Source: Gemmatimonadaceae bacterium (GTDB lineage Bacteria > Gemmatimonadota > Gemmatimonadetes > Gemmatimonadales > Gemmatimonadaceae). From it: 64,000 nt of DNA. Every line of letters starts with the position of its first letter. Within the stretch, counting starts at the first letter, position 1. The position numbers and the translations under genes were made by a program. Positions 34,566 through 51,262 of the stretch are shown here, in pieces. The DNA lies in contig JACCWE010000119.1 in assembly GCA_013697785.1 (NCBI GenBank), positions 1 to 64,000 on the forward strand, in the 5' to 3' direction. The notes under the pieces are model-generated. The model was not told where the DNA came from. It ran no database searches and saw only the letters and a program-made list of their open reading frames with translations.

Positions 34566-36629
34566 ATGAACGACACGATCGAAACGCGCTGGGAACAGCA
34601 GAACGAAGCCGGTCGCCTGTCGTTCACCGACGGCGACTTTGCACGAGCGGAGCAGTCGTTTCTCGCGGCAATTCGCGAAGCGACTCAGCTCGGCGCAGAC
34701 AACGTGCGCCTCGCCTCCAGTCTCAGCAACCTGGGCCAGCTCAAGTACAAGCAGAAGGATTTCGCCCAGGCGGAGGCGCTCTTCCATCGTGCGCTCGCCA
34801 TCCGCGAGCGCGTGCTTGGCCCCGAACATTTCGGTCTCGTTCAGAACATCAACAACCTCGCGGCGCTGCATTACGCACGCGGTGAGCTGAATCAGGCGGA
34901 GCCGCTCTTCCAGCGCGCGCTCGGCATCAGCGAGCAGCACCTCGGCGAGTCCCATCCCGATGTCGCCGTCACGCTGAACAACCTCGCGCGCCTCTATTTC
35001 CGCCAGAACGAGTATGCATCGGCAGGCCCGCTCCTCGCCCGGCTTCTCTCGATCAAGGAACAGGCACTCGGCGCCAGCCATCCGGAGATCGCGGCGATTC
35101 TCACGAGTCTCGCCAAGGTGCGTCTGCACGAGCAGGACTTCGACGGCGGCGAGGCGTTCGCGCGCCGAGCGCTGGAGATCCGCGAGAAGCTGCAGCTGCC
35201 CAACGATCTCGCGGTCGCGACTGCGCTCGAGACGCTGGCCGAGATCAACGGCGCGCGCGGTCGCATCGATCTCGAGATCGCCAATCGGGAGCGCGCGCTC
35301 CAGGTGCGAGAGGGCGCGATGGGCGCCGATCATCCGGTAGTCGCCTCAGCACGCGCGACGATCGAGGCGCGGCGCGCCACGCTCGCCCCAGCATTGCAGC
35401 CGATCGTAGCGCAGGCGCCTCCGAGCGCTGCGAAGCCGCCCGTTGCGAAGGCGCCCGTTGCGAAGGCGCCCGACGCGCCTCGGCCCGTCGCGCCTCCAGT
35501 TGCGCAACCGCCCGTCGCCGCCCGCCCGTCCGTCATCGCGCCGCCGCCGGAATTCGTCATTTCGCCGCCGCCCGCGCGGACGACGCGTACGACATCGCTG
35601 CCGTTCATCGAGGTCACCGAGGCGCCAACGTTCGATCGTGCGCGGCCGCCCTCCGTACCGCGCAACAGCGGCTCGAACTCCACCGTCGCCATCCCGCTTC
35701 GTAGCGGCAACGGAAATGGAAATGGCGCGCACGGCGCCACCGCCCCGCACACGGCGGAGTCGCCGCTCGCGTTCCATCCGCTCACCGAAGCGCCGCAGCA
35801 GTCGCGCTACAACGTCGCTCCTCCCGCCGCGAGCGCTGCGATCGAGATCGAGCCGTCGCTCGCGCCCGACGCACACGCGCAGAGCCCATTCACGAACTCG
35901 TTCGCACGACTGGTGGCGGAGACGCCTTCCGGTCGGAACGCGATCGTGCAGGACTCGCCACCGCCGCCTACCACGCATCGCATTTCCGAGCCACGCCCGG
36001 AAATCAGCCTCGACTGGCCGATAGAGCCGCGGCGTCCGTGGCTCAAGATCATCGCGGGGCTCATCGTGGTTGGTGCAATCGCGGGAGGCGGCTGGTACTT
36101 CCTCTCGCGCTACGAGACCACGTCGGCGCCGGTCGTCGCTGCTCCCGTCGCGAAGGCGAAACCGATCGTAGCTGCGCCGACGGATACGCTGGCGATCAAG
36201 CACGACTCAGCTCCTCCGGGACCGCCGGCCAGCGTCGTGAAGCCCGGCGTCACCACGTCGATCGTCCCCGTTTCGAAGCCCGAGGCTGCGCCGATCAAGC
36301 CCGAGCCGACCGTCATGAAGCCCGAGGCCGCCGTCGTGAAGCCGGTGTTCGTGCCGACGGGTCCCGCCAAGGTCGCGTCGCAGGACGAGGGTCCACCGCC
36401 TCAGGCGAAGAATGCGACGCACACTGCAGCTAAGGCCGACGCCGCGCCCACAGTCGCCGCGTCGGACGCGGAGTCCGATGCCTCGCCGTCGCTTCCGGCC
36501 GCCATCAAGGTCGACGCGATCACGAACATGATCGACGACAGCGCCCGTCATCGCGCCGACTCGGTGGGGAGCACGATTCAGCAGAAGCCGCCCACATTCA
36601 AGCCCAAGACGTATAAGCCGCCGGCCTAA
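34566..36629 (+). CDS. TPR-Pro-rich-TM protein opening the secretion cluster
   Basis: 687 residues. Residues 1-260 are kinesin-light-chain-style TPR repeats (ALAIRERVLGPEHFGLVQNI, ALGISEQHLGESHPDVAVTL). Residues 275-480 are a Pro/Ala/Thr-rich linker. There is one membrane segment near 493-512 (IIAGLIVVGAIAGGGWYF) and then a Pro/Lys-rich periplasmic tail ending in KPKTYKPPA. With no signal peptide, the TPRs face the cytoplasm. It could dock a cytoplasmic baseplate to the membrane, or recruit FHA/kinase partners. It is not a known Tss protein. Confidence 0.85.
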   Translation: MNDTIETRWEQQNEAGRLSFTDGDFARAEQSFLAAIREATQLGADNVRLASSLSNLGQLKYKQKDFAQAEALFHRALAIRERVLGPEHFGLVQNINNLAALHYARGELNQAEPLFQRALGISEQHLGESHPDVAVTLNNLARLYFRQNEYASAGPLLARLLSIKEQALGASHPEIAAILTSLAKVRLHEQDFDGGEAFARRALEIREKLQLPNDLAVATALETLAEINGARGRIDLEIANRERALQVREGAMGADHPVVASARATIEARRATLAPALQPIVAQAPPSAAKPPVAKAPVAKAPDAPRPVAPPVAQPPVAARPSVIAPPPEFVISPPPARTTRTTSLPFIEVTEAPTFDRARPPSVPRNSGSNSTVAIPLRSGNGNGNGAHGATAPHTAESPLAFHPLTEAPQQSRYNVAPPAASAAIEIEPSLAPDAHAQSPFTNSFARLVAETPSGRNAIVQDSPPPPTTHRISEPRPEISLDWPIEPRRPWLKIIAGLIVVGAIAGGGWYFLSRYETTSAPVVAAPVAKAKPIVAAPTDTLAIKHDSAPPGPPASVVKPGVTTSIVPVSKPEAAPIKPEPTVMKPEAAVVKPVFVPTGPAKVASQDEGPPPQAKNATHTAAKADAAPTVAASDAESDASPSLPAAIKVDAITNMIDDSARHRADSVGSTIQQKPPTFKPKTYKPPA

Positions 36630-36715: not shown

Positions 36716-38596
36716 ATGGAGCGACAGACCGGGTCTACGCGGCTGACTGGATCGCCGGGTGGCCAGGGTGGTGACGACGAGTTGCTGCGCGCGGTGAAGG
36801 AAGCTGCCGCCGCGGAGTACGAAATATTGGGGGAGATGGGCCGCGGTGAGCGCGGTAGCGTCGTGTATCTCTCGCGCGAGCGCGCCTCCGACAAGCTCGT
36901 TGCGCTGAAACTCCGCCCCGATGGCGCGGAGTTCGAGCTCAGCGTCGTTCGCGAGCTCGATGCATCCGTCCCGGCGATGGGGAACAAGTGCCCATCGTGC
37001 AAGGCCGATCTCGTCGGGTGGGGTCGTTTCTGCAGCCATTGCGGCAAGGATCTCTCGGGCACCCGCTCAGGTGAGGCGTCGCGCGAGGAGCTGCTCAAGG
37101 CCGTGCAAGGCGCCGCCGAAGGTGAGTACGAAGTGCTGGGCGAGATGGAGCGCTCGGAGGGCGGCGGCGTGGTGTACTTCGCGCGCGAGCTCAAGAGCAA
37201 CCGTCTCGTGGCGCTTCGTCTCACGCGCGAGCAGGAGAGCGACGGCAGCGAATCCTACGCGCTCGGCGTCACGCAGGTCATCAAGCCGCTGGTCGCATCG
37301 CTCGGTGCCACCTATGCGTCGCCGACGCAGGTGATGCAGGCCGCGAGCACGCCTGCGTCGCGAAACGTGGCGCCGTCGACGCGCTCACCGCAGCCCACCG
37401 CCAGAAGTGTGACGCCGCCGAGTGTGATGGTGCCGGACGATCTCGCCGAAGAGGAAGATGCGCCGCGGCCCAGGAAGAAGGTGCCCGTCATTCCGATCGC
37501 GGTGATCTCGGCGTTGCTCCTCGTCGGCGGAGCGCTGTTCGTCTTCTCCGACTCGAAGCACGGTGCGCCCGATGGACCGCAGGATCCGCCGGCCGACATC
37601 GTCGTTCCAGCAACGCCGCCTTCCACGCCGCCGGTCGTCGCAACCGCTCCAAGGGTCGACAGCGGAGTCGTGTCGATTGGATCGCTCCCCGCGGGCGCGC
37701 ACGTGACGCTCAACGGCAAGACGGTCACTGACCGCCAGCTCGCGCTTCTTCCGGGGAAGTATCAGCTCGTCGCAACCGCGCCGGGATTCAGGACCGCGAC
37801 GCAGCGCGTTGAGGTGGTCGGGGGACAGACGTTCAGCTGGGCGCCAATGATGGAAGTCGTGAAGGTGGCGGCGGCCGTGCCGGCTGCCGTGCCGCCTCCG
37901 ACTCCGCCCCTTCCGCGGCCGACGTCCGCGCCAAATTGCCTCAATGCGTACAGCGACAAGAACTATCCTGCCGCGTTGCTCGCGTGCACGCGCGAGGCGA
38001 ACGCCGGCAACCAGCAGGCGCAGCGCAACCTTGCGGTTATCTACGATCAGGGGCTCGGCGTCAACAAGGATCCGGCACAGGCGGCGATCTGGTTTCGAAA
38101 GGCCGCGCAGACCGGCAATCGCGACGCGAGCTTTCAGCTCGCATCGATGTACGAGCAGGGACGGGGCGTTCCGAAAGATCAGAAGGCGGCGCTCGACTGG
38201 TATCGCAAGGCTGCGCTGCTCGGCGATGCCGACTCGCAGGTGAAGCTCGGTCGCGCGTATCTCAGTGGCGACGGCATCGGCAAGGATGAGGGCGAGGCCT
38301 CCGCGTGGTTCCAGCGCGCGGCCGATCAGGGCAGCCTCTATGCGCTCAACCGGCTCGGCGCGATGTACATCGATGGGAAGGGCGTGCACAAGGACGAGGC
38401 GAGGGGCGTGAAGCTGTTCCAGTCCGCGGTCGCGAAGGGAGATGCGCAGGGACAGTTCAACCTCGCCGCGATGTATGCGAAGGGGCGCGGCATCGCGAAG
38501 AGCGATTCGGCGGCGAACGATCTGTACATCAAGTCGGCGAAGCAGGGCTACGCCGACGCGATCAAGGAAGCCAAGCATCGCAATCTGAAGTTCTGA
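36716..38596 (+). CDS. Duplicated kinase N-lobe/zinc ribbon/TM/PEGA/Sel1 protein
   Basis: 626 residues with an unusual order. Residues 26-85 (EYEILGEMGRGERGSVVYLS...KLVALKLRPD) look like the glycine loop and VAxK strand of a Ser/Thr kinase, but no catalytic lobe follows. Residues 92-110 are a zinc ribbon (CPSC...CSHCG). Residues 125-190 repeat the N-lobe in degenerate form (VALR replaces VALK). A TM segment at about 257-279 is followed by a PEGA domain at 315-378 (GSLPAGAHVTLNGK) and about five Sel1 repeats at 425-620 (YDQGLGVNKDPAQAAIWF). The C-terminal part is periplasmic. PEGA and Sel1 suggest envelope contact. GGAG precedes the ATG. Confidence 0.82.
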   Translation: MERQTGSTRLTGSPGGQGGDDELLRAVKEAAAAEYEILGEMGRGERGSVVYLSRERASDKLVALKLRPDGAEFELSVVRELDASVPAMGNKCPSCKADLVGWGRFCSHCGKDLSGTRSGEASREELLKAVQGAAEGEYEVLGEMERSEGGGVVYFARELKSNRLVALRLTREQESDGSESYALGVTQVIKPLVASLGATYASPTQVMQAASTPASRNVAPSTRSPQPTARSVTPPSVMVPDDLAEEEDAPRPRKKVPVIPIAVISALLLVGGALFVFSDSKHGAPDGPQDPPADIVVPATPPSTPPVVATAPRVDSGVVSIGSLPAGAHVTLNGKTVTDRQLALLPGKYQLVATAPGFRTATQRVEVVGGQTFSWAPMMEVVKVAAAVPAAVPPPTPPLPRPTSAPNCLNAYSDKNYPAALLACTREANAGNQQAQRNLAVIYDQGLGVNKDPAQAAIWFRKAAQTGNRDASFQLASMYEQGRGVPKDQKAALDWYRKAALLGDADSQVKLGRAYLSGDGIGKDEGEASAWFQRAADQGSLYALNRLGAMYIDGKGVHKDEARGVKLFQSAVAKGDAQGQFNLAAMYAKGRGIAKSDSAANDLYIKSAKQGYADAIKEAKHRNLKF

Positions 38597-38657: not shown

Positions 38658-39797
38658 ATGCCAGCCTACGCGGTTGAGTTCACGACGGAGCGCGGACTGC
38701 AGCGAACGCAGTTCACACTCGATGACGACCGACCGCTCGGCCCGCAGGTCCGACAAATCCTCGAGGAGCTTCGTGGCACCGGGGTAGTCATCTCCGGCAC
38801 GGCGGAGGACGAGCTGTCGGTCGTTTGGGGCGGCCGCGATCTCGATACGACGCAGGCGCCGCAGCAGCTCGGGATCAATCCGCAGCGCACGATCGAGCTC
38901 CACATGAAGCGTCGTGCGCGCGCGGTGAAGATCCCCGCGGTGGCGCCGTTCGTTCCCAAAGGCGCGTACGCAGCGGCGGTGAGCGGAATGGCGGGCGCGC
39001 TGCTCGCGTGGCTCGTGTGCTCGACGATCACGGACTTGAGCGACGCGCTGCCGACGTACGCGCGGCTCGATCTCGCGGTGGGCGGCATGATCGGCGTGTT
39101 CGCGGGCGGCTTCATCGCCGGGAGCGATGCGCTTCGTCGGCGCACGAGCCTTCCGCTCGGCGTGCTTTTCGGAGTGCTGCTGGGTCTCGTGGGCGGAGTC
39201 GCGGGTGGCGCCGCCGGCGCGGGACTCGGTGGTGTGCTCGCGCCGCGACTCACGCCTCCGGGATTCGTCGTCGCGCGCATCCTCGCCTGGGTAGTCCTCG
39301 GCTCGGCGCTCGGGCTCACACTCGGAATGCGGTGGTGGCAGGACGACGAGCGGCGCACGGTCGACGGCGCGGGCTACGGCGCGCTCGCGGGTCTCGTCGC
39401 CGGAATTTTGTACTCGCTGCCGGGTCCGTCGGAATTCTGGCAGGCGCTCGCCTTCGTGATTCTCGGCGCGGGTGTCGGCGCCGGCGTGTGCGCTCCGGCG
39501 CTCCGGCGATCGGTCGCGATCCTCGAGCTGGAGCGCGGCTCGCGCGGACGCATCGGGCTCACGCGGCTCCGCGAGTGGGGGCTCCTGAATGGCGAGAGCG
39601 TTGCGCTCGAGCGCGACGGAGCGACGGTGGCATCGGTGGTGTGCGAGTCGACGCGATGCCGGATCGTTCCGTCGGGCGCCGGAGTGCGAGTCTCCGGAAA
39701 GACCGTCTCTGCGCCGACCGAGCTCGTGAACGAAGATCGCATCGCGATTGGCGATGCCCAGTATCGCTTCCGTCGGCGCCGGCGGGTGAGCGCGTGA
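38658..39797 (+). CDS. Ubiquitin-like/multi-TM/FHA-like membrane protein
   Basis: 379 residues. The first 90 resemble a beta-grasp ubiquitin-like (YukD/EsaB) domain (PLGPQVRQILEELRGTG, ELSVVWGGRDLD, LGINPQRTIELHM). Residues 95-280 contain about six Gly-rich membrane helices. Residues 282-375 look like a degenerate FHA beta-sandwich ending in NEDRIAIGDAQYRFRRRR. Ubiquitin-like plus multi-TM is reminiscent of EccD of type VII secretion; no such combination is a standard T6SS part. Both soluble ends should be cytoplasmic. It is coupled to the VWA gene by a GTGA overlap. Confidence 0.75.
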   Translation: MPAYAVEFTTERGLQRTQFTLDDDRPLGPQVRQILEELRGTGVVISGTAEDELSVVWGGRDLDTTQAPQQLGINPQRTIELHMKRRARAVKIPAVAPFVPKGAYAAAVSGMAGALLAWLVCSTITDLSDALPTYARLDLAVGGMIGVFAGGFIAGSDALRRRTSLPLGVLFGVLLGLVGGVAGGAAGAGLGGVLAPRLTPPGFVVARILAWVVLGSALGLTLGMRWWQDDERRTVDGAGYGALAGLVAGILYSLPGPSEFWQALAFVILGAGVGAGVCAPALRRSVAILELERGSRGRIGLTRLREWGLLNGESVALERDGATVASVVCESTRCRIVPSGAGVRVSGKTVSAPTELVNEDRIAIGDAQYRFRRRRRVSA

Positions 39798-41167
39798 TAC
39801 GCCCCGCCCTCCCGATGCTCGCGTGCGCTACGACGTTCGCGATGACATTCGCAATGCCGGCGCTCGCGCAGGTCGCGACGCCGACGTCGCCGGTCGGCAT
39901 GGTGCGATGCATGGAGAGCTCCGACGTGCCGTGCCTTCGCGCAACGGTGCCGCTCCGCCCGGAGGAGGCTCGCGCGTCGAACGAGCAGAGTGCCGCAGCG
40001 GACTGGAAGGCGGACATCGCGGATCTGTCGCTCACGGGCGGCATCGCGCGCTCGACGGCGACGATCGCCCATCCACTCACGCTGCTCGTGCTCGTCGACA
40101 TCAGCGGCAGCATGAAAGGCGAGGGGATCGAGCTCACGCGCTCGGCGCTCCGCACCTTCATCTCCGAGCTGCCGCGAAGCTCGGTGCGAGTGGCCGTCGC
40201 CCCGTTCGCGAGCCACACTCTCGCGCCGCGGATTCGCGCCGCGACATTCACCGATCCGCAGAGCGCGCTCGCGCAGGTGGATGGGCTGCCGCAACCCGAA
40301 GGGAACACGGGATTGTACAGCGCAGTGGAGATCGGGTCCGAGGTCGTGAAGGGCGCGCTCGATGGACAGCCGAAGGATGCGTGGGGAGCGCTGCTCGTGA
40401 TCACCGATGGCGTCAACGACGTGCGACCGACCGACGATCCGGGATTGCTCTCCGGCTCGACGGGGCGTGACGCCGCCGTGAACGCGGTCGCCAGCAGCGG
40501 CAACTACGTGTGGCTCGTCGGCATCGGCTCCGCGCCCGATGGAGCGGACCTTCAGGCACTTGCGGGCGCCCACGGCGAGCGGTATTTAGTAGCCGAAGAT
40601 CCGCTGCTGTTGCATCGGGTGTTCACGGGTATTCGGGATGCGCTATTTACAACGCGTGCATTGACTTATCCCGCACCTACCTGGGCTCGCGCCCGACTTG
40701 CCCGCGGAGTCTTTCCGCTCACGGTGAGCCGAGGCGATGGTCGCGGCTGTTGTTCACCTGCAGTGGCGGGCCGGTGGACGCCGCCTCTCTATGCGTTGCC
40801 TGCGTTCGGCGGCGTGGCGGACTCCGGCACGGCGACGGCGCAAGGGATCTCCGCGTACGAGCAGAAACAGCCTCGCGTGGCAAGCAATGTCCTCGTGTTC
40901 GCGTTTTTCGCGCTAGTCGGGGTAGTGCTGTGGTTCGTTCTGCCGGGGATGATCTGGCCGGACGAGTCGGTGGCGATGGCGGGACCGCCGGCGCCGAAGC
41001 TCGCGAACAGCGTCGCCTCGCCTGCCGCGGCTCCTCGCGTGGCGGCCAGTGCCGCCGCCCCCGAGCCCGCGGTGGTGAGCGGTGGTGTTCGTCGCGGGGT
41101 CACGGAGGCTCCTCCGCGTCGTCCTACGGACGTCACGGCGGCGACTGCACGTCGTTCGGTGAAGTGA
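39794..41167 (+). CDS. Exported, C-terminally anchored von Willebrand A protein
   Basis: 457 residues. A signal peptide (LACATTFAMTFAMPALAQ) is followed by a VWA domain from about residue 95 with the metal-ion site LLVLVDISGSMKGEG and ITDGVNDVRPTDDP, two further MIDAS loops. A membrane helix lies near 366-388 (VFAFFALVGVVLWFVLPGM), with an Ala/Pro-rich cytoplasmic tail. The VWA domain is thus periplasmic and could bind a partner through Mg2+. It overlaps the preceding gene (GTGA) and precedes tssB by 65 bases. VWA genes occur next to some secretion loci, but a function here is inferred only from place. Confidence 0.83.
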   Translation: MIRPALPMLACATTFAMTFAMPALAQVATPTSPVGMVRCMESSDVPCLRATVPLRPEEARASNEQSAAADWKADIADLSLTGGIARSTATIAHPLTLLVLVDISGSMKGEGIELTRSALRTFISELPRSSVRVAVAPFASHTLAPRIRAATFTDPQSALAQVDGLPQPEGNTGLYSAVEIGSEVVKGALDGQPKDAWGALLVITDGVNDVRPTDDPGLLSGSTGRDAAVNAVASSGNYVWLVGIGSAPDGADLQALAGAHGERYLVAEDPLLLHRVFTGIRDALFTTRALTYPAPTWARARLARGVFPLTVSRGDGRGCCSPAVAGRWTPPLYALPAFGGVADSGTATAQGISAYEQKQPRVASNVLVFAFFALVGVVLWFVLPGMIWPDESVAMAGPPAPKLANSVASPAAAPRVAASAAAPEPAVVSGGVRRGVTEAPPRRPTDVTAATARRSVK

Positions 41168-41232
41168 TGATTCGTGATCGAGAAGTGGTCGTTCATTGGT
41201 GTGGTGCGCGGTTCATCTCGAGGAGGAGTTAG

Positions 41233-41712
41233 ATGCCAGTTGTGAAGGTTTCGCGGGCGGGTGTCCGCTCCGCACCACGCGAAGTACCGACGGATACGAC
41301 TGCGACGGTGCTCCCGATGACCGTCGATCGCGTCGGCCAGGAATGCCCCGAGGATGATCAGCCGACCAAGGTGAGCAGCCTTGCCGAGGCGTTCGAGAAG
41401 TTCAAGCCCAAGCTGGACTTCAAGACGACCGTGGGTGAGGAGGGGACGGAGTTCGTCGCGGAACTCGAGTTCAAGAGCCTCAAGGACTTCGACCCGAAGA
41501 AGATCCGCTCGCGCGAGCCGGGCAAGCGAAATGATCTCGCCGATCTGCAGAGTCGCATCGATCTCCTTCACCGCATGCGCGAGCGCTTCGCCGTGCTCTC
41601 GGTGAAGAAGGCGTGGGAGAACACCGACCAGCGAAAGGAGATCATCGACGCCGTGGCCGAGTTCGAGCAGCAGCTCCGCAACATCGCCGGCGGCGAAGGA
41701 GCGGCATCATGA
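41233..41712 (+). CDS. tssB: T6SS sheath subunit TssB (VipA-like)
   Basis: 159 residues, the usual TssB length. The core matches the small sheath protein: AEAFEKFKPKLDFKTTVGEEG, FVAELEFKSLKDFDPKKIRS and a C-terminal helical part with LADLQSRIDLLHRM. It polymerises with TssC into the contractile sheath in the cytoplasm. GAGGAG lies before the ATG, a strong ribosome site. The tssC ATG overlaps its stop (ATGA), as in many T6SS loci. Confidence 0.9.
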   Translation: MPVVKVSRAGVRSAPREVPTDTTATVLPMTVDRVGQECPEDDQPTKVSSLAEAFEKFKPKLDFKTTVGEEGTEFVAELEFKSLKDFDPKKIRSREPGKRNDLADLQSRIDLLHRMRERFAVLSVKKAWENTDQRKEIIDAVAEFEQQLRNIAGGEGAAS

Positions 41713-43052
41713 GCGACGAAGTCAAGACGCGCACGACTTTCGACATCATTGGAAAGAAGGCCGCGGGGAAGGCGATCGAAGAAATCTTCAACGTCATCCA
41801 CCCGGCGCCGCCCAAGACGTCGCTCGGCGAGATCTTCACGGCCGAATCCGCGAACCAGTTTCTCGATCGTGTCGCGAGCTTCTCCGCGCTGCTCTCGCAG
41901 GCGGACAGCCATGCGCAAGCGCTCAAGAAGCTCGACGCTGCGATCGCGGAGATGGAGACGGTGCGCGACGAAGTGCTCAAGGCCGTCTACAAGCAGATTC
42001 GCCCGCTCGAGAAGAGCTACAAACAGATTCAGCTCTTCTTCGAGAATTCGGAAGTGCGCGACAACGTGCAGCGTCCGCCGGTGGAGTTTTTCATCTTCAA
42101 CGCCGACTCGAAGGCGATCACGAGCGATGTCGACAGCTCGACGATCGTGGCGCTCGATGAGTTCGTGCAGGGGCGGAACGACAGCTTCAACTTCCGCCAG
42201 TTCATCTGCAATCTCGTCGTGCCTGGCTACGTGCCGGACGTCGTGCGCAAGCGGCTCGAGGACATCTCGAACAAGTGGGGAATGCTGCTCATCGGCGATC
42301 TCAAGGATGAGAAGAGCTTCCGTACGCTGAGCGATCAGTTCCGCACCGACGGCGGTGCGTACGAATTCCTGAAGCGTCCGGAGGACAAGGCCGCGTCGGA
42401 CGTCGTGATCGCGGGCTACGTGAAGCTGCGTGAGAAGCACTGGTTCGAGGAAGCGGACGGCGATTCGGAAGACGCCGATCTCTATTCGCCCGCGTCGATG
42501 CTGTTCGCGGGATCGCTCGCGCGGGCGGATCGCACCACCGGCGGCGGCATCGCGCAGGGCCCCGTCGGCATGATCTTCGGCAAGATTCGCGGCGTCGAGA
42601 AGTCGCGTATCGAGCCGCGCATCTCGCAGATGGAGCATCTCTCGATGGAGCGGCAGGTCGTCTCGATCATCCGCAACGAGGACAACGATCTCTGCTTCGT
42701 GGGCAGCCGCTCGCAGGCCGAAGATCCGAACGGCGTGCTCAAGTTCTTCACGTCGTACCGTGTGCTGCGGTATCTCGAGCGCCGTATCGCCGTGTACCTG
42801 CGCCGCGTCGCGGAGCAGCGCCTCACGCGTGATCTCGTCAAGTCGCAGGTGCGCGATCCGATCGAGGAATTCCTGCGCAGCGAAAAGCAGAAGGGCACGA
42901 TCTACGACTTCAACCTCGACATCGACATGGCCGAGGAGAAGTTCGCGATGGGTGTGCTCGATATGGGGCTCGAGGTGCTGCCGGTTGGTCCGGCGGAGAC
43001 GTTCAACCTCAAGATCGACACGCCGAACTTCTCGAAGGAGGAGGCGAAGTAG
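41709..43052 (+). CDS. tssC: T6SS sheath subunit TssC (VipB-like)
   Basis: 447 residues, shorter than the roughly 490-residue canonical TssC. A helical N-terminal stretch (FLDRVASFSALLSQADSHAQ, AIAEMETVRDEVLKAVYKQI) precedes the sheath fold. RVLRYLERRIAVYLRRVAEQ and GVLDMGLEVLPVGPAETFNLKIDTP occupy the C-terminal domain typical of the large sheath protein. It builds the contractile tail with TssB. It follows tssB with a four-base overlap and is followed at its stop by the small Pro-rich gene. The divergence fits a non-canonical T6SS. Confidence 0.87.
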   Translation: MSDEVKTRTTFDIIGKKAAGKAIEEIFNVIHPAPPKTSLGEIFTAESANQFLDRVASFSALLSQADSHAQALKKLDAAIAEMETVRDEVLKAVYKQIRPLEKSYKQIQLFFENSEVRDNVQRPPVEFFIFNADSKAITSDVDSSTIVALDEFVQGRNDSFNFRQFICNLVVPGYVPDVVRKRLEDISNKWGMLLIGDLKDEKSFRTLSDQFRTDGGAYEFLKRPEDKAASDVVIAGYVKLREKHWFEEADGDSEDADLYSPASMLFAGSLARADRTTGGGIAQGPVGMIFGKIRGVEKSRIEPRISQMEHLSMERQVVSIIRNEDNDLCFVGSRSQAEDPNGVLKFFTSYRVLRYLERRIAVYLRRVAEQRLTRDLVKSQVRDPIEEFLRSEKQKGTIYDFNLDIDMAEEKFAMGVLDMGLEVLPVGPAETFNLKIDTPNFSKEEAK

Positions 43053-43402
43053 TGGCTGCCGGCGACGGCAAATCGCCTGGTGCGGGAGATGACGAATCGA
43101 CTGCACCGCGCAAGCCGGATCTGCGTGTGGGCTCGCACGACGACATGGGCGTGAACATCTCGCGTGACTTGCGCGGGACGGGCGGCAATGCACGCGGCCA
43201 CGGCGCGACCTTTTCGAAGATGAGCTTCTCCTCGCGCGGCGCGCCGCGCGAGGAGGTTGTGGAGGAGGCCCCGGCGCCCGCGAAGCCGCCCTCCTCTGCA
43301 CCGGTGTCCGCGCAGGCACCGGCTGCACCGCCCGCCGCTCCGGCCGAGCCGGAGAAGGGCACTGTTGTCAGTTGGCTCACGGGGCTGTTCACGCGCCGCT
43401 GA
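43052..43402 (+). CDS. Small Pro/Ala-rich protein between sheath and tube genes
   Basis: 116 residues from a GTG that shares one base with the tssC stop. The N-terminal half is polar (GDDESTAPRKPDLRVGSHDD), the middle is Pro/Ala-rich, and the C-terminus is a short amphipathic stretch KGTVVSWLTGLFTRR that could bind a membrane or a partner groove. No family is recognised. Strict coupling inside the core secretion operon argues for a structural or chaperone role. It has no signal peptide, so it is probably cytoplasmic. Confidence 0.7.
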   Translation: MAAGDGKSPGAGDDESTAPRKPDLRVGSHDDMGVNISRDLRGTGGNARGHGATFSKMSFSSRGAPREEVVEEAPAPAKPPSSAPVSAQAPAAPPAAPAEPEKGTVVSWLTGLFTRR

Positions 43403-43478
43403 GCGGCGATCGTTTCCCCGACTCACTCTGCCGGCGGTCGCCGGCGGCTCTCCACGAACCCAATCACGAGGAAGGACG

Positions 43479-43973
43479 ATGGCTGCTCGTACTTACGGCG
43501 CCTGTCACATTGAGGCGGGGAAAATCGACCTGTGGCCCAACGAAGCACGGGTGCGCATCCTGTCGCCGCGTGATCAGGCGACCGGGCAGGCGACCGGACG
43601 TCATCAGATCCAGGGCATCAGTGCGTGGGTCAACGCGAGTGATGAGTCGCGCATCACGCAGGATGTGTTGATGGAAGTCTGGAAATCGATGTTCGCGAAC
43701 GAGATGCTGACGAAAGTCTCGATCACCTGGTTCACGAACGAAGCGAAGGGCGCCAACGTGCTCGCGAACCTCGAGTTCCAGGGCAGCGTAACCGGTTTCG
43801 AATTCTTCAATCCCGGCACGCCGATGTCGGACATCACGGATGGCCCGGCGAAGGGCGGCATGTCGATCGCCGATCACAAGCCGGAAGCGATGATGATGTC
43901 GAATATCATGGTCGTGCAGTTCGTCGCGACGACCACCGACAAGGGATACGGCGCGCTCAAGTTCACGAAGTGA
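43479..43973 (+). CDS. hcp: Hcp-family tube protein (TssD), main copy
   Basis: 164 residues, the length of Hcp. It is beta-rich: a short start (YGACHIEAGKIDLWPNEARV), KVSITWFTNEAKGANVLANLEF, then FQGSVTGFEFFNPGTPMSD. This is consistent with the Hcp beta-barrel that stacks into the inner tube. Similarity to textbook Hcp is weak by eye. The call rests on length, fold-like strand pattern, position after the sheath genes and the presence of a paralog next door. The ribosome site is GAGGAAGG. It is followed by a perfect 10-bp hairpin. Confidence 0.78.
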   Translation: MAARTYGACHIEAGKIDLWPNEARVRILSPRDQATGQATGRHQIQGISAWVNASDESRITQDVLMEVWKSMFANEMLTKVSITWFTNEAKGANVLANLEFQGSVTGFEFFNPGTPMSDITDGPAKGGMSIADHKPEAMMMSNIMVVQFVATTTDKGYGALKFTK

Positions 43974-43982
43974 TCAATGTGT

Positions 43983-44008
43983 GTGGTGCGGCGATGATGC
44001 CGCACCAC
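43983..44008 (+). promoter_or_regulatory. Intercistronic hairpin after hcp
   Basis: GTGGTGCGGC (43983-43992) pairs perfectly with GCCGCACCAC (43999-44008) around GATGAT. There is no T-run, so rather than a full terminator it looks like a stabiliser of the upstream mRNA or a partial attenuator. Either would help give more tube protein than downstream baseplate protein. Confidence 0.65.
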
Positions 44009-44039
44009 GCCACTGCACGCACCCGCAAACGGCGAGTCG

Positions 44040-44537
44040 ATGACCGGACCTTCGCTCAATACACGATTCGGCACGATCTTTTTTTCCCTCGACAACGGGA
44101 TATCGTTCGAGGTCGATGACGCACGAGTCGAGATCACTCGTGCGGTGAATTCGGTCGGCCGGCGCACGGGCTCTTCACTCGATATCCGCGTTCACGTCGT
44201 GCTCGATCTCAACACGCTCAGAGGCAGCGACGTCACGCCCGAGCTGTTCAAGATCTCGATCCAGGCCGACGATATCGTGCAGGGTTTCAAGGTCGATTGG
44301 CACAACCCGGTCTCCGGTGCGCTGGACGGGTTGGGACCGCTGGCGCGGCAGCTCTCGTTCTCGGGATGGATCGCTGGCTTCGAGTTATATCGCCCTGAGA
44401 AAACCGGCTCCGATTCGTTCGGAGATGGCGAAGCCTCGGCGGGTACCCGGCTCGGCCGCGCCGACAACCTGCTGCATCTCACGGTCGCCGTCGTGACCGA
44501 CGACGACAACATCGCCAATCTGACGCTCACCGAGTGA
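44040..44537 (+). CDS. Hcp-like second tube protein
   Basis: 165 residues. The C-terminal half aligns by eye with the preceding Hcp: QLSFSGWIAGFELYRPEKTG against LEFQGSVTGFEFFNPGTP, and HLTVAVVTDDDNIANLTLTE against the final strand of Hcp. The N-terminal part differs. Two unequal tube proteins in tandem recall contractile tails that use a special first or last ring. It has no strong ribosome site and is followed by a GTGA overlap, so it is probably made in lower amount than Hcp. Confidence 0.7.
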   Translation: MTGPSLNTRFGTIFFSLDNGISFEVDDARVEITRAVNSVGRRTGSSLDIRVHVVLDLNTLRGSDVTPELFKISIQADDIVQGFKVDWHNPVSGALDGLGPLARQLSFSGWIAGFELYRPEKTGSDSFGDGEASAGTRLGRADNLLHLTVAVVTDDDNIANLTLTE

Positions 44538-44923
44538 CGGCACCCTTCGCCTCCTCGCGGATGCTCTCGCTGCCGCTCCGCATCACGCCGGAGGGCCAGC
44601 TCGAGCGCACGGATCCACTGTCATCGCTCCTCGAGATGATGCGCGCGATGGCGGCGACGTCGCGGCAGGCGTGGCCGCATGCGCCGTGGTTCGGCTTGCA
44701 GGAGCTCTTCGCCGAGGCAAGCCCGGACGTGCAGGAGCATCCGCGGCTCGTGCTCGCGCTCAACGCGGCGTTCGCGGGACTCGGAATCAACTGGGCGCGC
44801 GTCTCGTCGGTACGCAAGCCGCATACGCGCGTGCAAGGTGAGCGCAACTTCGACATCACGCTCCTGATCGATGGCAAACCCGCCTTCGGGAATGTCGCCG
44901 CGTCCTCCCCGATGGCCGGTTAG
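44534..44923 (+). CDS. tssE: gp25/TssE-like baseplate protein (divergent)
   Basis: 129 residues. It shows the gp25-type order: an N-terminal segment (RTDPLSSLLEMMRAMAATSR), a WFG motif (WPHAPWFGLQELFAEA), then LALNAAFAGLGINWARV and a beta-hairpin FDITLLIDGKPAFG. The EPRI-like motif of canonical TssE is not present; GINW sits in its place. Position, between tube and spike genes, supports TssE. It starts at a GTG overlapping the Hcp-like gene stop, and vgrG starts six bases after it. Moderately sure. Confidence 0.58.
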   Translation: MTAPFASSRMLSLPLRITPEGQLERTDPLSSLLEMMRAMAATSRQAWPHAPWFGLQELFAEASPDVQEHPRLVLALNAAFAGLGINWARVSSVRKPHTRVQGERNFDITLLIDGKPAFGNVAASSPMAG

Positions 44924-44929
44924 CCGCGC

Positions 44930-46825
44930 ATGGCGACTCGTGTCGAGGTGACTATTGGGGCGCTGACACTCCGCGACCGCGAAGTCGAACACCTCGAGAT
45001 CGTGCAGGAGCTCGGCGAGCATCATCGTCTGACCATCACGTTCCACCGCGATCCGAGCAAGACTATCAAGTTGGCGGACTTCGTGAATCCGAAGGTGACG
45101 GTCACCTTCACGGACGACGTTGCAAAGAAAAGCTCGACGCCATTCGTCGGGCTGATCGATTCATGCGAGGAACAGCATCAGCTTCGCGGCGGATCGATCT
45201 TCGTGATGGTCGCGCTCTCGGACTCGGCGAAATTCAGCGCGCGCCATCACAAGGGAAATCTGCTGAGCGGGAAGATCACCGACATCATGACGGCGTTCGA
45301 GATCAAGGTCGTCGGCACCATTCCGTTTCAGCGGATTCAGGACTGGCGGCAGGCGGGCGAATCGGATTTCGCGTTTTTGAAGCGCATCGCCGATGACCAT
45401 CAGTGCTATCTGCGTCCGATCCCGGGGGGGCTCGAGCTGCGCCATGGATTCGATGACAAGCGTCACGACCTCAGCTGGGGGAAGAATGTCAGCGCGTTGA
45501 CGTCGCGCATCGTTCCGCGCAACGCTCGCTTCAAGGGCGCCTACTACGAATTCCAGGCGAAGGCCGAGCTGGCGCTCAATGATCGGCAGAAGGATGCCCC
45601 CGCTTCCGGAGCGATCAACCTCACCGATGCGGTCAAGGCGAAGGCGATCGAGCTGCAGGTCGCGGGCGTCGGCAATTTGTACGAGACGATCACGCGATCG
45701 GCCCTCCGCGCCACCTTTCGCGACGCCGTATTGCGGGAAGCCGAGCGCGCGAGCGGGACGGCGGTGACGATAGAGGGCACTTCCACGAACGTCGAGCTGC
45801 TCGTCGGCGACACCGTCGACGTTCGCGACGGCAACAACTTCAAACTTCCCGATCCACCGGGCACGCTGGGGTTGACGCACGTGAAGCATGTATTCGATGG
45901 CAATCAATACTCGAACTCGTTCGTCGCCACTCCGTGGACGAATTTTTCGAATGCGATTCAGCCGCCGCGACAATTGCTATTCGGATTCACGACGGCGGAG
46001 GTCGTCGACAATCTCGACCCCGCAGCGCTCGGCCGCATCAAGATCCGATTCAAGGACAGTCCGGCAGGCCGCACCGACATCGACATGTTCGCCCGGTACG
46101 TCACTCCCTTCGCCGGAAATCAGCGCGGCATCGCGTTTCTTCCGGAGATCGGCGACGAGGTAATCGTCGGTTTCGAGGAAGGCGATCCTGAGCATCCGTA
46201 CATCATCGGAAGTGTCTGGAACGGTCCCGACATCTCCCCGGGTCCCACGCCCAAGCGAATCGTCACCAAGAGCGGCAACGCGATCGTGATGGATGATGCC
46301 GGTGTGATCGAAATTCACTCGCCGAGCGGCACGTGTCTGGTGCAGCTGAGCAATGGTGTGGACGGTGCACCGCGCATCACGATCGCATCTGGCGGCGATC
46401 TCTTTCTCGAAGCCGCGGATCGCATCCAGCTCAAGTGCAAGAATCTGGTAGAGCTGGTCGACAAGGATGCGACTCGCATCATCAAGGGCGACGATCAGAC
46501 ATCGATCAAGGGCGCGCGCTTCATCGAGGTCACTGGCGAGGACGTCCATCAGTCGGACACGCGCATTGCATTCCTGGCCGGTGGCTCCAGCACGATCGAG
46601 ATGAGTCCCATCGCCATCGTGTCGCAGGGCAATCAGATGGTCTCGATTGCCAAGGCACAGAACGTCGTGCAGGGCTTGTTCGTATTGCTGAATCCTCCCG
46701 GCCTCGTGATGCCGCCTGCCCAGGGAGGCATCTTCGTCGAGCCTGAGGCGAAGGACAGCATCGCGACCGGCCGTGCGAATCCCAAGCCGACCGTACCGTT
46801 CAAGGTCGACGGTGATGACACGTGA
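44930..46825 (+). CDS. vgrG: VgrG spike protein (TssI)
   Basis: 631 residues. The gp27-like N-terminal part (VEVTIGALTLRDREVEHLEI, FDFAFLKRIADD-type segment at DFAFLKRIADDHQCYLRP) is followed by the gp5 OB-fold (GRIKIRFKDSPAGRTDIDMF, GNQRGIAFLPEIGDEVIVGF, DPEHPYIIGSVWNG). A beta-helix-like C-terminus follows (ITIASGGDLFLEAADRIQLK). It ends in a Pro-rich tail without a recognisable toxin domain. It forms the trimeric tip of the tail. No PAAR gene follows. Its stop overlaps the TssF start (GTGA). Confidence 0.92.
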   Translation: MATRVEVTIGALTLRDREVEHLEIVQELGEHHRLTITFHRDPSKTIKLADFVNPKVTVTFTDDVAKKSSTPFVGLIDSCEEQHQLRGGSIFVMVALSDSAKFSARHHKGNLLSGKITDIMTAFEIKVVGTIPFQRIQDWRQAGESDFAFLKRIADDHQCYLRPIPGGLELRHGFDDKRHDLSWGKNVSALTSRIVPRNARFKGAYYEFQAKAELALNDRQKDAPASGAINLTDAVKAKAIELQVAGVGNLYETITRSALRATFRDAVLREAERASGTAVTIEGTSTNVELLVGDTVDVRDGNNFKLPDPPGTLGLTHVKHVFDGNQYSNSFVATPWTNFSNAIQPPRQLLFGFTTAEVVDNLDPAALGRIKIRFKDSPAGRTDIDMFARYVTPFAGNQRGIAFLPEIGDEVIVGFEEGDPEHPYIIGSVWNGPDISPGPTPKRIVTKSGNAIVMDDAGVIEIHSPSGTCLVQLSNGVDGAPRITIASGGDLFLEAADRIQLKCKNLVELVDKDATRIIKGDDQTSIKGARFIEVTGEDVHQSDTRIAFLAGGSSTIEMSPIAIVSQGNQMVSIAKAQNVVQGLFVLLNPPGLVMPPAQGGIFVEPEAKDSIATGRANPKPTVPFKVDGDDT

Positions 46826-48588
46826 TGAAGGGTCAGAGCGCTAGCGCGGGAGCCCGCTCCCCGGGCGTGCTCGGCGGCACTGCGCGCTCCGCCGCCGATC
46901 TCGCGTCCGAGATGCGTCGCGAGTTCGAGGCCGCGGTTGCGCTGCGCTTCGGAACGCAGCCACAGCCCGACCCGGTGCTCGGCGCGCTCTTCCAGGCATT
47001 CGCGGTGCAGCTCGAGCGCATCTACCAGGAATCCGAATACGTCTTTCCGGTGGCCGTTCTCGACGATCTGCTGAACGGACTCGCGCTCCCGTCGCGCCTG
47101 GCGCATCCCGCGCAAACCGTCGTTTCGTTCAGCGGCATCGATCAGCGCGAGCGACTCGCGCTCGACACGGAGATCATCGGCAACTCCTCGGGTGGCGAGC
47201 AGCTGCGCTTCACGATCGACGAATCGATCGAGATCTCTTCGACAACGCTGGCGTTCGCCGGCGTCTCCGAAAATGGGAAGCTGCACTCCGTCGCCGGCGC
47301 ACGCATCGGGACGGCGCCCATTCTCCCGGGCAGCACGCCGCTCGTGCTGCGAAACGCACCGCCCACTCTGCTGTTCGCCTTCGACGGCGATGCCTCGCAT
47401 CTCAGCGGCCTCGGCATTTTTCTCGATGTCACGAGCATCGATAGTCCGCTCGTCGAGGCGGTGTCGCGGAGTCCGTGGCAGATTCTCTCTCCCGACGGCT
47501 CCGTCTCCGAGATTGGCACGCTGCGCGCCAGGCGCGGGCGTGGCGGCGTCACCACGCTCGTGTGGAACGACTCGTCGCGCGTCGAAGAGGACGAGATCGT
47601 GAGCACCGGCGCCGCGTCCGACGACGCGGCAGATGTGGCGAGCGCCTTCGAGCTCTCGCCCGGCAGCTACGGCAAGCAATGCGTCGTATTCCCGAACGTT
47701 CCGGCCGAGCGACGCATGCGCTCGTCGCCGCCGGTCCGCTTCGCGGATGCACTAGCCGTACTGCTCCCCGAGAAACAGCAGAATGCGCTCGACCGGCCGC
47801 TCATCTGGGTGCAGGTGCCTCTGCCCGCGGCGCTCACGCGCGTCGCCGACGAGCTGCAGCGCATTGCGCTGCACGCGGTGACCGCGAGCAACATCGAGAT
47901 CTACAACGAGCGCATCCAGTTCGACCGGATGGGCAACGCGGTCACTCTTCGCCCTGAGGGGCGCACCGATCAGTATCTTCTCGGTCTGCTCAGCGTGAGC
48001 GGTGAGAAGGGAGATGCGTACGTCAACGACTCGTCGATCGCCGCGCCGGCCGAAGCGGGCCGTTATCGCTTCCGCAGCGGACAGCTCGAGTGCCGTCCGC
48101 ATCGCCAGCCGACGGGACGGTACGATGGATATGCGATGGCGCGCTTTCTCTTTTGCGATGGTGCCCGCGCGAACGGAATGGAAGTGGGATCGGTGAAGCG
48201 GATCGCGTCGCCGCTGTCGAACGTCGCCGCGCGCGTGGTCAATCTCGCGGTGTCGCGCGGCGGGAGCGCGCCGCCGCCATACGCCGACGCGCGAATCCGC
48301 TTCGCGGAGCTGCTGCGCACGCGCGATCGCGTCGTAACGATCGATGACGTCGAGATCACGGCCCGCGCGTTCGAGCCGCGCATCAAGAGTGTTGATGTGA
48401 AAACGGCGTCCGAGCTCGGACCGCACGGTGTACGCCAGGTCGACGTCGTCGATGTGCGCGTCGCACCGAGCGATTTCGCGGATCCCGAATCGGAGCTCCC
48501 AAGGCTCTCGACTCTGCTCGAGTCGCATCTGCAGGAGCGTGCGATCATGGGTCGCGGCGTGCGCGTTGCGGTGCGGCCGCATGTCTAA
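46822..48588 (+). CDS. tssF: T6SS baseplate protein TssF-like
   Basis: 588 residues, TssF length. N-terminal SEMRREFEAAVALRFGTQPQPDP and FQAFAVQLERIYQESEYVFPVAVLDDLLNGL match the usual TssF opening of long helices followed by beta domains. It is rich in short beta segments later on. The next gene is tssG, overlapping by eight bases, the standard pairing (two TssF and one TssG per wedge). The GTG at 46822 overlaps the vgrG stop, with ATG at 46825 as the alternative. Confidence comes from both order and pattern. Confidence 0.82.
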   Translation: MMKGQSASAGARSPGVLGGTARSAADLASEMRREFEAAVALRFGTQPQPDPVLGALFQAFAVQLERIYQESEYVFPVAVLDDLLNGLALPSRLAHPAQTVVSFSGIDQRERLALDTEIIGNSSGGEQLRFTIDESIEISSTTLAFAGVSENGKLHSVAGARIGTAPILPGSTPLVLRNAPPTLLFAFDGDASHLSGLGIFLDVTSIDSPLVEAVSRSPWQILSPDGSVSEIGTLRARRGRGGVTTLVWNDSSRVEEDEIVSTGAASDDAADVASAFELSPGSYGKQCVVFPNVPAERRMRSSPPVRFADALAVLLPEKQQNALDRPLIWVQVPLPAALTRVADELQRIALHAVTASNIEIYNERIQFDRMGNAVTLRPEGRTDQYLLGLLSVSGEKGDAYVNDSSIAAPAEAGRYRFRSGQLECRPHRQPTGRYDGYAMARFLFCDGARANGMEVGSVKRIASPLSNVAARVVNLAVSRGGSAPPPYADARIRFAELLRTRDRVVTIDDVEITARAFEPRIKSVDVKTASELGPHGVRQVDVVDVRVAPSDFADPESELPRLSTLLESHLQERAIMGRGVRVAVRPHV

Positions 48589-49543
48589 GCCGGTGGTCGA
48601 GAGCGATGACGAGAGCGTGGCGATCGGCATGCCCGATCTCGTGCGCGCGCGCCGGCTCGCGCGCCAGACGATCGACTCTGCGCTCACGACGCTGTACGCG
48701 CTCGGCGTCGACGACTCGCGCGTCGTGATCGAGAGCGTCGGGCGCGGATGGGAGCCGGGGACGATCGTCGAGCAGTCGCCGGAGCCGGGAACGCCGCTCA
48801 CTGGCCGCACGCGCGTCGTGCTAAAGGTTGCAGGCGCGAGCGCGATCGACTCGCTTCCGTTCGCGATGCGCGACGAGGACGAGTATGAGTTCCGCTCCGA
48901 TCGGCTCTTCGCGCTGTTCGACAGCCCGCTCGCCAAGCTCGCGTATCGTGTACGCCGGGGCGGCGACTATTTCGTGGCGTCGCCGGATGACATGGTGCGC
49001 ACGCGCCGCTGGATCGAGGAGATCTTCCAGCTCGATGCGGAGCGGTGGAGCGAAGAGCGCTGGTTTGCGATCGCGCGGCTGCTTCCCGCGCTGCATCGCA
49101 TTGCGGGACGCGAGCTCGCGCTACGCGTCGCCTTCCGGCTCGTCTTCTCCTTGCCAGTGGAGAGCGTGACAATGCATGCCGGGATGGTGAAGCTCACTAC
49201 TGGTGGCACGACCGCGCTGGGCGTGAGCAATGCGCGGCTCGGTGTGGATGCGATCGCGGGGACGGGGCTGCGCGACGAGGCGTCGGTCGAGGTGCGATAC
49301 GGTCCGATCGATCTCGCGATGTACCTCGCGCATACCGGCGACAGTGCCCGCAGGGAGCGCGACGAGCTCTATCGGCTCGTGCTGCCGATGCATCTCGCAC
49401 GCTCCGTGCGCGAGCGCTGGCGGGTGGGCGACGCGAGCCAGCCGGCGCGCGTCGGCGGTGCCAGCGCCGGAGCGAACGAAGATGCAGCGGTCCTGGGAGT
49501 GAACAGCTATCTTGGCGCACCGCCGCAAAGGAGATCCGCGTAA
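48581..49543 (+). CDS. tssG: PASTA-TssG fusion, baseplate protein
   Basis: 320 residues. Residues 17-84 are a PASTA domain: MPDLVRARRLARQTIDSALT...GWEPGTIVEQSPEPGTPLTG...VVLKVAG. The rest fits TssG, ending in LGVNSYLGAPP like the C-terminal LGxxxWLG of the family. PASTA domains usually sit outside the cell and bind peptidoglycan, yet this protein has no signal or TM segment. It may therefore be used here as a protein-binding module. It starts inside the tssF gene (eight-base overlap), and the tssK ATG shares a base with its stop. Confidence 0.78.
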   Translation: MSKPVVESDDESVAIGMPDLVRARRLARQTIDSALTTLYALGVDDSRVVIESVGRGWEPGTIVEQSPEPGTPLTGRTRVVLKVAGASAIDSLPFAMRDEDEYEFRSDRLFALFDSPLAKLAYRVRRGGDYFVASPDDMVRTRRWIEEIFQLDAERWSEERWFAIARLLPALHRIAGRELALRVAFRLVFSLPVESVTMHAGMVKLTTGGTTALGVSNARLGVDAIAGTGLRDEASVEVRYGPIDLAMYLAHTGDSARRERDELYRLVLPMHLARSVRERWRVGDASQPARVGGASAGANEDAAVLGVNSYLGAPPQRRSA

Positions 49544-51198
49544 TGCCGGAGGAGACGGGAGAGGGGCTCAAGTCGGTCAACTGGACCACGGGAATGCTGC
49601 TCACGCCAGAGCATTTCACGCTGCAGGACCAGTACATCGACAATTCCGTGGGCTGGGTGCTCCGGAATTGCCTGACCGCGACCGGGCTGGTGGGCGGCGG
49701 CGTGCGCCTGGAGGCCGCACAGCGCGGCCTCGGCGTGTTCGACCCGAAGGTCGACGTGCAGGATGACGGTACGACGGTGAATATTTCCGTCCGCCAGACA
49801 CGCGGCCTCACGTCGCTCGGCGACATCGTCGACATCGATGAGAGCTGCGTCGTGCGACGCAGCCTGCCGCGCGGCGATCTCGCTGGCGCGACGGAGCTCC
49901 TCGTCTATCTCGTCGCTGGCGAAGGAAAGGAGGCGGATCCGGAGAGCGTTGGCTCGGACGACGCGAATCCGAACTTTGCCGCACTGCGCCGCAACAAGTA
50001 CACGATTGCGCTCGGCGTCGACGCCGATGCGCTGCCGCACTCGCTCGCGATCGGGAAGGTGCGCCGCGCATCCGAGACGCTCGGCTTCGAGCTCGACCCT
50101 CGCTTCATCCCGGCGTGCGCGACGCTGCTCGCGCACAGCTCCCTCTACGCGGGGTGGCGCGCGCTCCAGGCGGAGATCGTCTTGCTCGCGGGTGAGTTCG
50201 CCGAGCTGCATCGCGCGGTCGCGCGCTACGCGGATCAGGTGTCGCGCCGCGGCATCGATGTGCGCGGCGACACGGACATCCTCGCCTTCATCGAGCGCGC
50301 CGTCATGGCCCTCGACACGCTCGCGTACGAAACGTTCGATCCGGCGATGTCGCCGTTCGCGTTCTTCCAGCAGGTCGATCGCTGCGGCCGCCGGATCGCG
50401 GTCGCGCTCGATCTCAGCTCCTCGACGCAGAGCTTCTTTCAGACGCTCACGGGTGCAGACGCGAGCTATGCGACGCTGCTCGAGGAGGAGCGCCAGGCGC
50501 TCTCCACTCGGCGCGAGCTCAGCCCGCGCGATGACCTCCGCCACTCGATGGAGCGCGCGGAGCAGACGATCGGACAGCTGCGCCGCCTCTGCGAAGCGCT
50601 CGAGGGGAAGTACGTCGACTATCGCATCAACCGCTCGATCGACTCGCTGCGCTTCCTGCTCGACCGCGGCGGCGAGCACTTCTACGTGTCGGTCGCGACG
50701 CCAGGGCATCCGCAGCGCGACGGCGACATCCTCACCTTCGTGTTCTCGCAGATGAACCTCACGGGGCGCCACGAATATCGCGTCGTTCTCATGGGCGATC
50801 CGCAGGGCGCGTCGAGCTGGCACGTGGGCGAGGAGCTTCGCGTCGATCTCCGCATCAACTCCAACTCGGGGCCGAGCCGCCCCACGTCGCGGAACATCGC
50901 GGCGGAGATTCCGGGGCAGCGCAACTTCGCCATGAACTTCGACACGCCGCCGGACGTGGCGACTATCACGGGGCTCACCATCACGGTTCAGCCGGGGCAT
51001 CGTGTGCGCGGCGCGCTGCTCTATCAGCGTCGCCTCGGGCTGATCGCCGAGGGTAGCGGTCCACCCCCGCTCTCGACACCGGCGCCGTCGGTGTCGCCCG
51101 TCGCGCAGGCCGCGCCGCAGCCGACTTCGTCGCCGCAGGCGCATTCGGATCAGACGCCGATGGGCACGCCGGTCATCAAACTGAAGAAACCCAAGTGA
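49543..51198 (+). CDS. tssK: T6SS baseplate adaptor TssK
   Basis: 551 residues. The N-terminal VNWTTGMLLTPEHFTLQDQYID is the TssK signature (W-x-GM-L-x-P-x-HF-x-x-QD). The middle is helical (ELHRAVARYADQ, RRLCEALEGKYVDYRIN), and the C-terminal domain, which in canonical systems docks on TssL/TssM, is divergent and ends in a Pro/Ser-rich tail (TPVIKLKKPK). AAGGAG lies nine bases ahead of the ATG. Its presence without TssL is a puzzle: its membrane partner may be one of the unusual proteins in this cluster. Confidence 0.85.
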   Translation: MPEETGEGLKSVNWTTGMLLTPEHFTLQDQYIDNSVGWVLRNCLTATGLVGGGVRLEAAQRGLGVFDPKVDVQDDGTTVNISVRQTRGLTSLGDIVDIDESCVVRRSLPRGDLAGATELLVYLVAGEGKEADPESVGSDDANPNFAALRRNKYTIALGVDADALPHSLAIGKVRRASETLGFELDPRFIPACATLLAHSSLYAGWRALQAEIVLLAGEFAELHRAVARYADQVSRRGIDVRGDTDILAFIERAVMALDTLAYETFDPAMSPFAFFQQVDRCGRRIAVALDLSSSTQSFFQTLTGADASYATLLEEERQALSTRRELSPRDDLRHSMERAEQTIGQLRRLCEALEGKYVDYRINRSIDSLRFLLDRGGEHFYVSVATPGHPQRDGDILTFVFSQMNLTGRHEYRVVLMGDPQGASSWHVGEELRVDLRINSNSGPSRPTSRNIAAEIPGQRNFAMNFDTPPDVATITGLTITVQPGHRVRGALLYQRRLGLIAEGSGPPPLSTPAPSVSPVAQAAPQPTSSPQAHSDQTPMGTPVIKLKKPK

Positions 51199-51204
51199 TC
51201 GCCC

Positions 51205-51227
51205 CCCGGCGCGCAGGATGCGCCGGG
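51205..51227 (+). promoter_or_regulatory. Intercistronic hairpin between tssK and the Clp ATPase gene
   Basis: CCCGGCGC (51205-51212) and GCGCCGGG (51220-51227) form a perfect 8-bp stem with a seven-base loop, directly after the tssK stop and 36 bases before the ATPase start. There is no T-run; it is probably a stability or attenuation element. Confidence 0.5.
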
Positions 51228-51262
51228 TCGCTGTTCGCTTTGCCAAACAAGGAGAGCCACCG

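Follow-up and report, generated by a model that had tools for sequence, protein, structure and literature searches.

The protein encoded at 36716-38596 on the forward strand of the window (the whole 64,000-nucleotide stretch of DNA, from a soil bacterium of the Gemmatimonadaceae, that was analysed) carries, on either side of a zinc ribbon, two repeats that resemble the beginning of a protein kinase N-lobe and stop before the catalytic parts. We hold with about even confidence that it acts without catalysis, as a membrane-anchored docking protein for an unusual Type VI secretion system (T6SS), because the repeat-zinc-repeat module is inherited almost constantly with a T6SS that lacks the usual membrane anchor.

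Two partial kinase N-lobes around a zinc ribbon

The open reading frame is intact (626 aa, no stops) and its product is predicted to be a bitopic membrane protein, with the order repeat A, zinc ribbon, repeat B, transmembrane (TM) helix, PEGA and Sel1 (from the reading frame, Pfam and hydropathy). Repeat A (residues 20-88; 36773-36979) comprises a helix and strands beta1-beta3, with Lys65 kept, followed by an extra strand that closes with LDASVP; repeat B (residues 120-196; 37073-37303) comprises a helix and beta1-beta3 with GGGVVYFARE, Arg168 at the Lys position, and again an extra strand (limits from hhalign, AF2 and the homologue alignment). Between them lies the zinc ribbon, C92-x2-C95-x10-C106-x2-C109 (36983-37057), under the Pfam cut-off at E 0.02, whose two CxxC knuckles are kept in 37/37 homologues. 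A single TM helix, a feature absent from the earlier note, is found by hydropathy at residues 258-276 (37487-37543). Because basic residues (RPRKK) come just before it, residues 1-257 should be cytosolic and the PEGA/Sel1 part periplasmic according to the positive-inside rule. The PEGA domain (residues 317-374; 37664-37837) scores 33.2 bits against a Pfam gathering cut-off of 20.8 (E 5e-8), and the Sel1 repeats (five stretches with approximate outer limits, 38003-38575) 129 bits against 30.7 (E 4e-38). The zinc ribbon, PEGA and Sel1 parts read earlier from the sequence are borne out. The protein matches no curated Tss family (TssA-TssM) in Pfam or NCBIfam.

Repeats A and B are homologues, sharing 45% identity and reaching 99.4% in hhalign. 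Against an aligned set of 44 complete kinases of this phylum and its relatives, repeat A reaches 97.6% and repeat B 96.3% in hhalign, both over helix-beta1-beta2-beta3 only. The zinc ribbon and repeat B taken together align over a single unbroken stretch of 86 columns with the Gemmatimonadota Hanks-type Ser/Thr kinases that carry a zinc ribbon (hhalign 99.3%, E 8e-21), the order of the two elements being the same and their spacing similar. All three alignments stop just past VAxK, in strand beta3, and controls with column-shuffled or reversed profiles reach 0.1-2.4% only. Given this contiguous alignment ending after VAxK and the low controls, the module most likely descends from a zinc-ribbon kinase that lost helix alphaC and everything beyond; in place of alphaC there are about ten residues and then one new strand. 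Pfam finds no kinase (PF00069) in the protein, so that the kinship is visible to profile methods only, and neither Pfam nor the profiles find a C-lobe with HRD and DFG, the homology stopping at beta3. Strands beta1-beta3 and the glycine loop are present in both repeats, the loop being degenerate in B. Searched against the sequences of solved structures, the module returned weak matches only, the best of them zinc ribbons and kinases (E 0.003-1). Another apparently isolated N-lobe in the same genome (C111) was rejected as a kinase truncated by a contig end.

Structure prediction gives moderate backing to this assignment. For residues 20-200, AF2 with nine sequences yields a tandem model with one helix and four strands per repeat (pLDDT 79, pTM 0.75; the five models range from 53 to 79), and a single repeat modelled from 18 rows has the identical topology (pLDDT 76, pTM 0.58). 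In Foldseek searches of the PDB, kinase domains make up most of the named matches of the single repeat (probability mostly 0.6-0.85, about 40-50 residues); with the tandem, the high-probability matches are kinases over 35-45 residues (top probability 0.91, 41 residues, 2.1 A), and full-length matches such as cystatin have probabilities of at most 0.2. The check by structure prediction thus succeeds in part: the four-strand topology is recovered and kinase domains dominate the matches, but neither the single repeat nor the tandem has a PDB match with E < 0.001. Fold comparison thus lends support without settling the matter, and it is the sequence profiles that bear the N-lobe claim. By these profiles the earlier reading of the repeats as truncated kinase N-lobes holds, each repeat of about 70 residues matching kinases up to beta3.

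The module and its Type VI secretion system

Upstream, the protein is preceded by a TPR protein with one TM helix (34566-36629, +), which is kept beside it even in a genus without T6SS. The cluster downstream (38658-56996) is, by its gene content, a divergent T6SS. It opens with a protein that has a ubiquitin-like N-terminus (profile match to ubiquitin-fold chains, E 1e-4) and about five TM helices by hydropathy, an EccD/TssN-like layout (38658-39797, +), and a VWA-domain protein with one TM helix (39794-41167, +). There follow TssB-like (41233-41712, +) and TssC-like (41706-43052, +; PF17541, E 3.5e-16) sheath subunits, a VgrG-like spike (Phage_base_V; 44930-46825, +), a TIGR02243-like baseplate protein (46822-48588, +), TssG-like (48428-49543, +, start uncertain) and TssK-like (49540-51198, +) baseplate subunits and a ClpV/TssH-like ATPase (51218-53962, +). 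Next come an FHA protein with a TM helix (53959-55008, +), a soluble Ser/Thr kinase with the catalytic motifs MALK, HRDIKPSN and ADFG (55008-55826, +) and, on the opposite strand at the end of the cluster, a second FHA-like/TM protein (55788-56996, -). TssC, VgrG and TssG score over the Pfam cut-offs, and the TssB, TssK and ClpV/TssH models under the curated cut-offs; the product of 46822-48588 matches TIGR02243 ('putative baseplate assembly protein') and not the curated TssF family. IcmF/TssM and DotU/TssL were not found anywhere in the genome of the window. Among 12 T6SS carriers, IcmF is present in one and DotU in two: G285 has both, on a separate contig, and G264 has DotU only.

Searching for the repeat in other proteins, as the earlier note had proposed, recovered the module (E < 1e-20) in 28/395 Gemmatimonadota genomes, fusions to kinases included, as well as a contig-edge fragment in G053. 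Among the matches listed when 84,980 genomes were scanned by pattern, full-length modules occur in Gemmatimonadota only, and those outside the phylum are short kinase matches. Conservation across so many genomes and independent assemblies refutes the possibility that an assembly error removed a catalytic lobe. The periplasmic part varies among homologues, being PEGA/Sel1, another domain or almost nothing. In G136 (L166/L167) two module genes lie on both sides of the T6SS cluster, one with PEGA/Sel1-like parts and the other short; in G325 two lie 11 kb apart (L159, 4841-5983 and 16579-18096) with a VgrG-like gene between them, in a genome without TssC of this type that possibly has another injection system.

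The module is found in 17/19 genomes with this TssC and in 11/376 without it (Fisher P 1e-20, uncorrected for phylogeny), and many loci, in several families, show physical linkage of the module gene with T6SS genes. In one of the two exceptions (G004) the T6SS contig begins inside the ubiquitin-like gene, where the module gene should precede, and in the other (G012) TssC is a fragment at a contig end. The eleven carriers without this TssC include kinase fusions and a genus retaining the gene without T6SS; the module is therefore not exclusively a T6SS part.

This latter genus, a sister of the window's own (g22; genomes G025 and G364, loci L154 and L036), provides a natural deletion. Gene order matches that of the window on both sides of the module gene, the region between 38.6 and about 57 kb is absent, and the order becomes TPR gene, module gene, homologue of the gene at 57708, SOD. 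TssC and TssK are absent genome-wide in g22, and the ClpV matches are just about 43% identical. In the absence of the T6SS the module evolves with a dN/dS of 0.28, compared with 0.04 for SOD and 0.10 for the N-terminus of the TPR protein in the same genome pair; in two genera that have the T6SS, the window's own and g37, the module values are 0.03-0.06 and 0.09, respectively. Constraint in g22 is thus 3-9 times weaker than in T6SS-bearing genera; all of these are pairwise Nei-Gojobori estimates from few pairs with dS near 0.8, clear in direction and imprecise in size. The module is under strong constraint alongside the T6SS and this constraint is relaxed after T6SS loss.

Docking, kinase regulation and other readings

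The protein is not a Hanks-type kinase, the beta3 Lys being unconserved and the C-lobe missing, and a catalytic role is excluded because the catalytic lobe is missing. Nor is it a complete two-lobed pseudokinase, since part of the N-lobe only is present. Residue counts from 38 homologues place Lys at the beta3 position in 10/37 A repeats (13 have Arg and the remainder are mixed) and in 0/38 B repeats (31 Arg, 5 Ala); the matching column is Lys in 44/44 local kinases. The statement that the second repeat has Arg for Lys is accurate for this protein (K65 in A, R168 in B). What the module does conserve is the zinc cysteines and, in B, the motif YFAR. A nucleotide-binding sensor, in which the N-lobe modules would still bind a nucleotide, ATP or some other, but perform no catalysis, could draw on repeat A of the window's genus, which retains GxGxxG and Lys65; yet the Lys is gone in 27/37 A repeats and in every B repeat, and alphaC, the hinge and the entire C-lobe floor of the pocket are missing. 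A conserved ATP site is unlikely, and we judge the sensor very improbable. The earlier suggestion of a repurposed small beta domain holds as well, since the residues by which an N-lobe binds ATP have been lost. A functionless protein, whether the remnant of a zinc-ribbon kinase in decay, a pseudogene or the product of an assembly error, is harder still to credit and was rejected: the contiguous homology to zinc-ribbon kinases does reveal such an origin, but the module is conserved in many assemblies and at a dN/dS of 0.03-0.06.

A more serious competitor is a kinase regulator acting in trans, in which the modules would bind to a complete Hanks kinase and activate it, serve as its decoy or recruit substrates for it, the T6SS being one output among others. 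In five genomes the module is followed, within one fusion protein, by another zinc ribbon and then a complete kinase (G057, G024 twice, G367, G395 twice and G299; contig ends truncate some of the frames). In G363 (L176, 8016-10526, -) its fusion partner is a kinase of full length but degenerate, a separate pseudokinase with HRC for HRD and TGFG for DFG. Moreover, a kinase gene lies within 4 kb of 10/24 stand-alone loci, against about 6% expected per locus (P 1e-6, uncorrected for related loci), and the T6SS cluster itself contains an FHA protein and a kinase. The fusions with complete kinases and the neighbouring kinase genes suggest that the module and Hanks kinases are functionally linked, whether in cis or in trans, and the 'scaffold for the cluster kinase' proposed in the earlier note is plausible. 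Against regulation in trans, no kinase lies within 4 kb of the gene in the window's genus, the cluster kinase being 16 kb off, and the positions matching PknB Arg10 and Leu33, which we take to be the residues of the PknB back-to-back dimer, are not conserved as Arg/Leu: they are mostly Glu/Ala/Gly and Ser/Thr/Gly. A PknB-type back-to-back interface in the module was rejected because these key positions are not kept. We regard the kinase regulator as a possibility that is on balance improbable, and rank T6SS docking above it given the co-occurrence with the T6SS and the relaxation linked to its loss. Both linkages, to the T6SS and to kinases, are compatible with docking of T6SS parts and/or a kinase at the membrane.

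How might such docking proceed? We hypothesize that the N-lobe modules are protein-binding surfaces that would hold T6SS parts at the inner membrane, be it the baseplate, the FHA/kinase branch or the ubiquitin-like/TM protein encoded next to it. On the opposite side, PEGA and Sel1 may contact the envelope in the manner of EssB/YukC in the type VII system. The docking, its partner and the envelope contact are inferences, and the periplasmic part is inconstant among homologues, so that a role in envelope contact could not be general.

Parallels with other secretion systems

In proteobacterial T6SS a threonine phosphorylation pathway operates through PpkA and Fha. The window's cluster also has a kinase and FHA proteins, and the protein described here has a PpkA-like layout of cytosol, TM helix and periplasm; unlike PpkA it has no catalytic lobe, and the cluster kinase is a separate soluble protein. 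A documented precedent for the proposed role is EssB/YukC, whose cytosolic pseudokinase part has a non-catalytic role in scaffolding (PMC12599244; for EssB see also PMC3694306). In both, a non-catalytic domain of kinase origin in the cytosol is joined by one TM helix to an extracytoplasmic part, this layout being predicted in our case, and the gene belongs to a secretion-system cluster. They differ in that EssB is a complete two-lobed pseudokinase of a type VII system, whereas our protein has beta1-beta3 only, twice, around a zinc ribbon, and sits with a T6SS; no EssB chain appears among the best 60 PDB profile matches or the best 50 Foldseek matches. The neighbouring gene at 38658 extends the comparison, since TssN and EccD both combine a ubiquitin-like domain with TM helices (PMC10781749). 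In the Bacteroidota T6SSiii, with TssN/O/P/Q/R, TssJLM are likewise missing and lineage-specific membrane proteins are present, one of them ubiquitin-like with TM helices (PMC10781749). The likeness of our protein and its neighbours to TssNOPQR is one of layout, not demonstrated homology. Taken further, the Gemmatimonadota T6SS could have a membrane complex made of parts resembling those of the type VII system, the ubiquitin-like multi-TM protein being EccD/TssN-like and the protein with duplicated N-lobe fragments EssB-like, which would make it a third independent solution to T6SS anchoring; we put this forward as a doubtful proposal.

Among open papers (subscription papers and preprints being outside the scope of the search), we found no description of the module family or of its T6SS. 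A kinase fold reduced to three strands, duplicated, given one new strand and held under strong selection as a non-catalytic module goes further than the pseudokinases known so far. The protein is also a candidate for the missing membrane anchor of a T6SS lineage that has no TssJLM and belongs to a poorly studied phylum.
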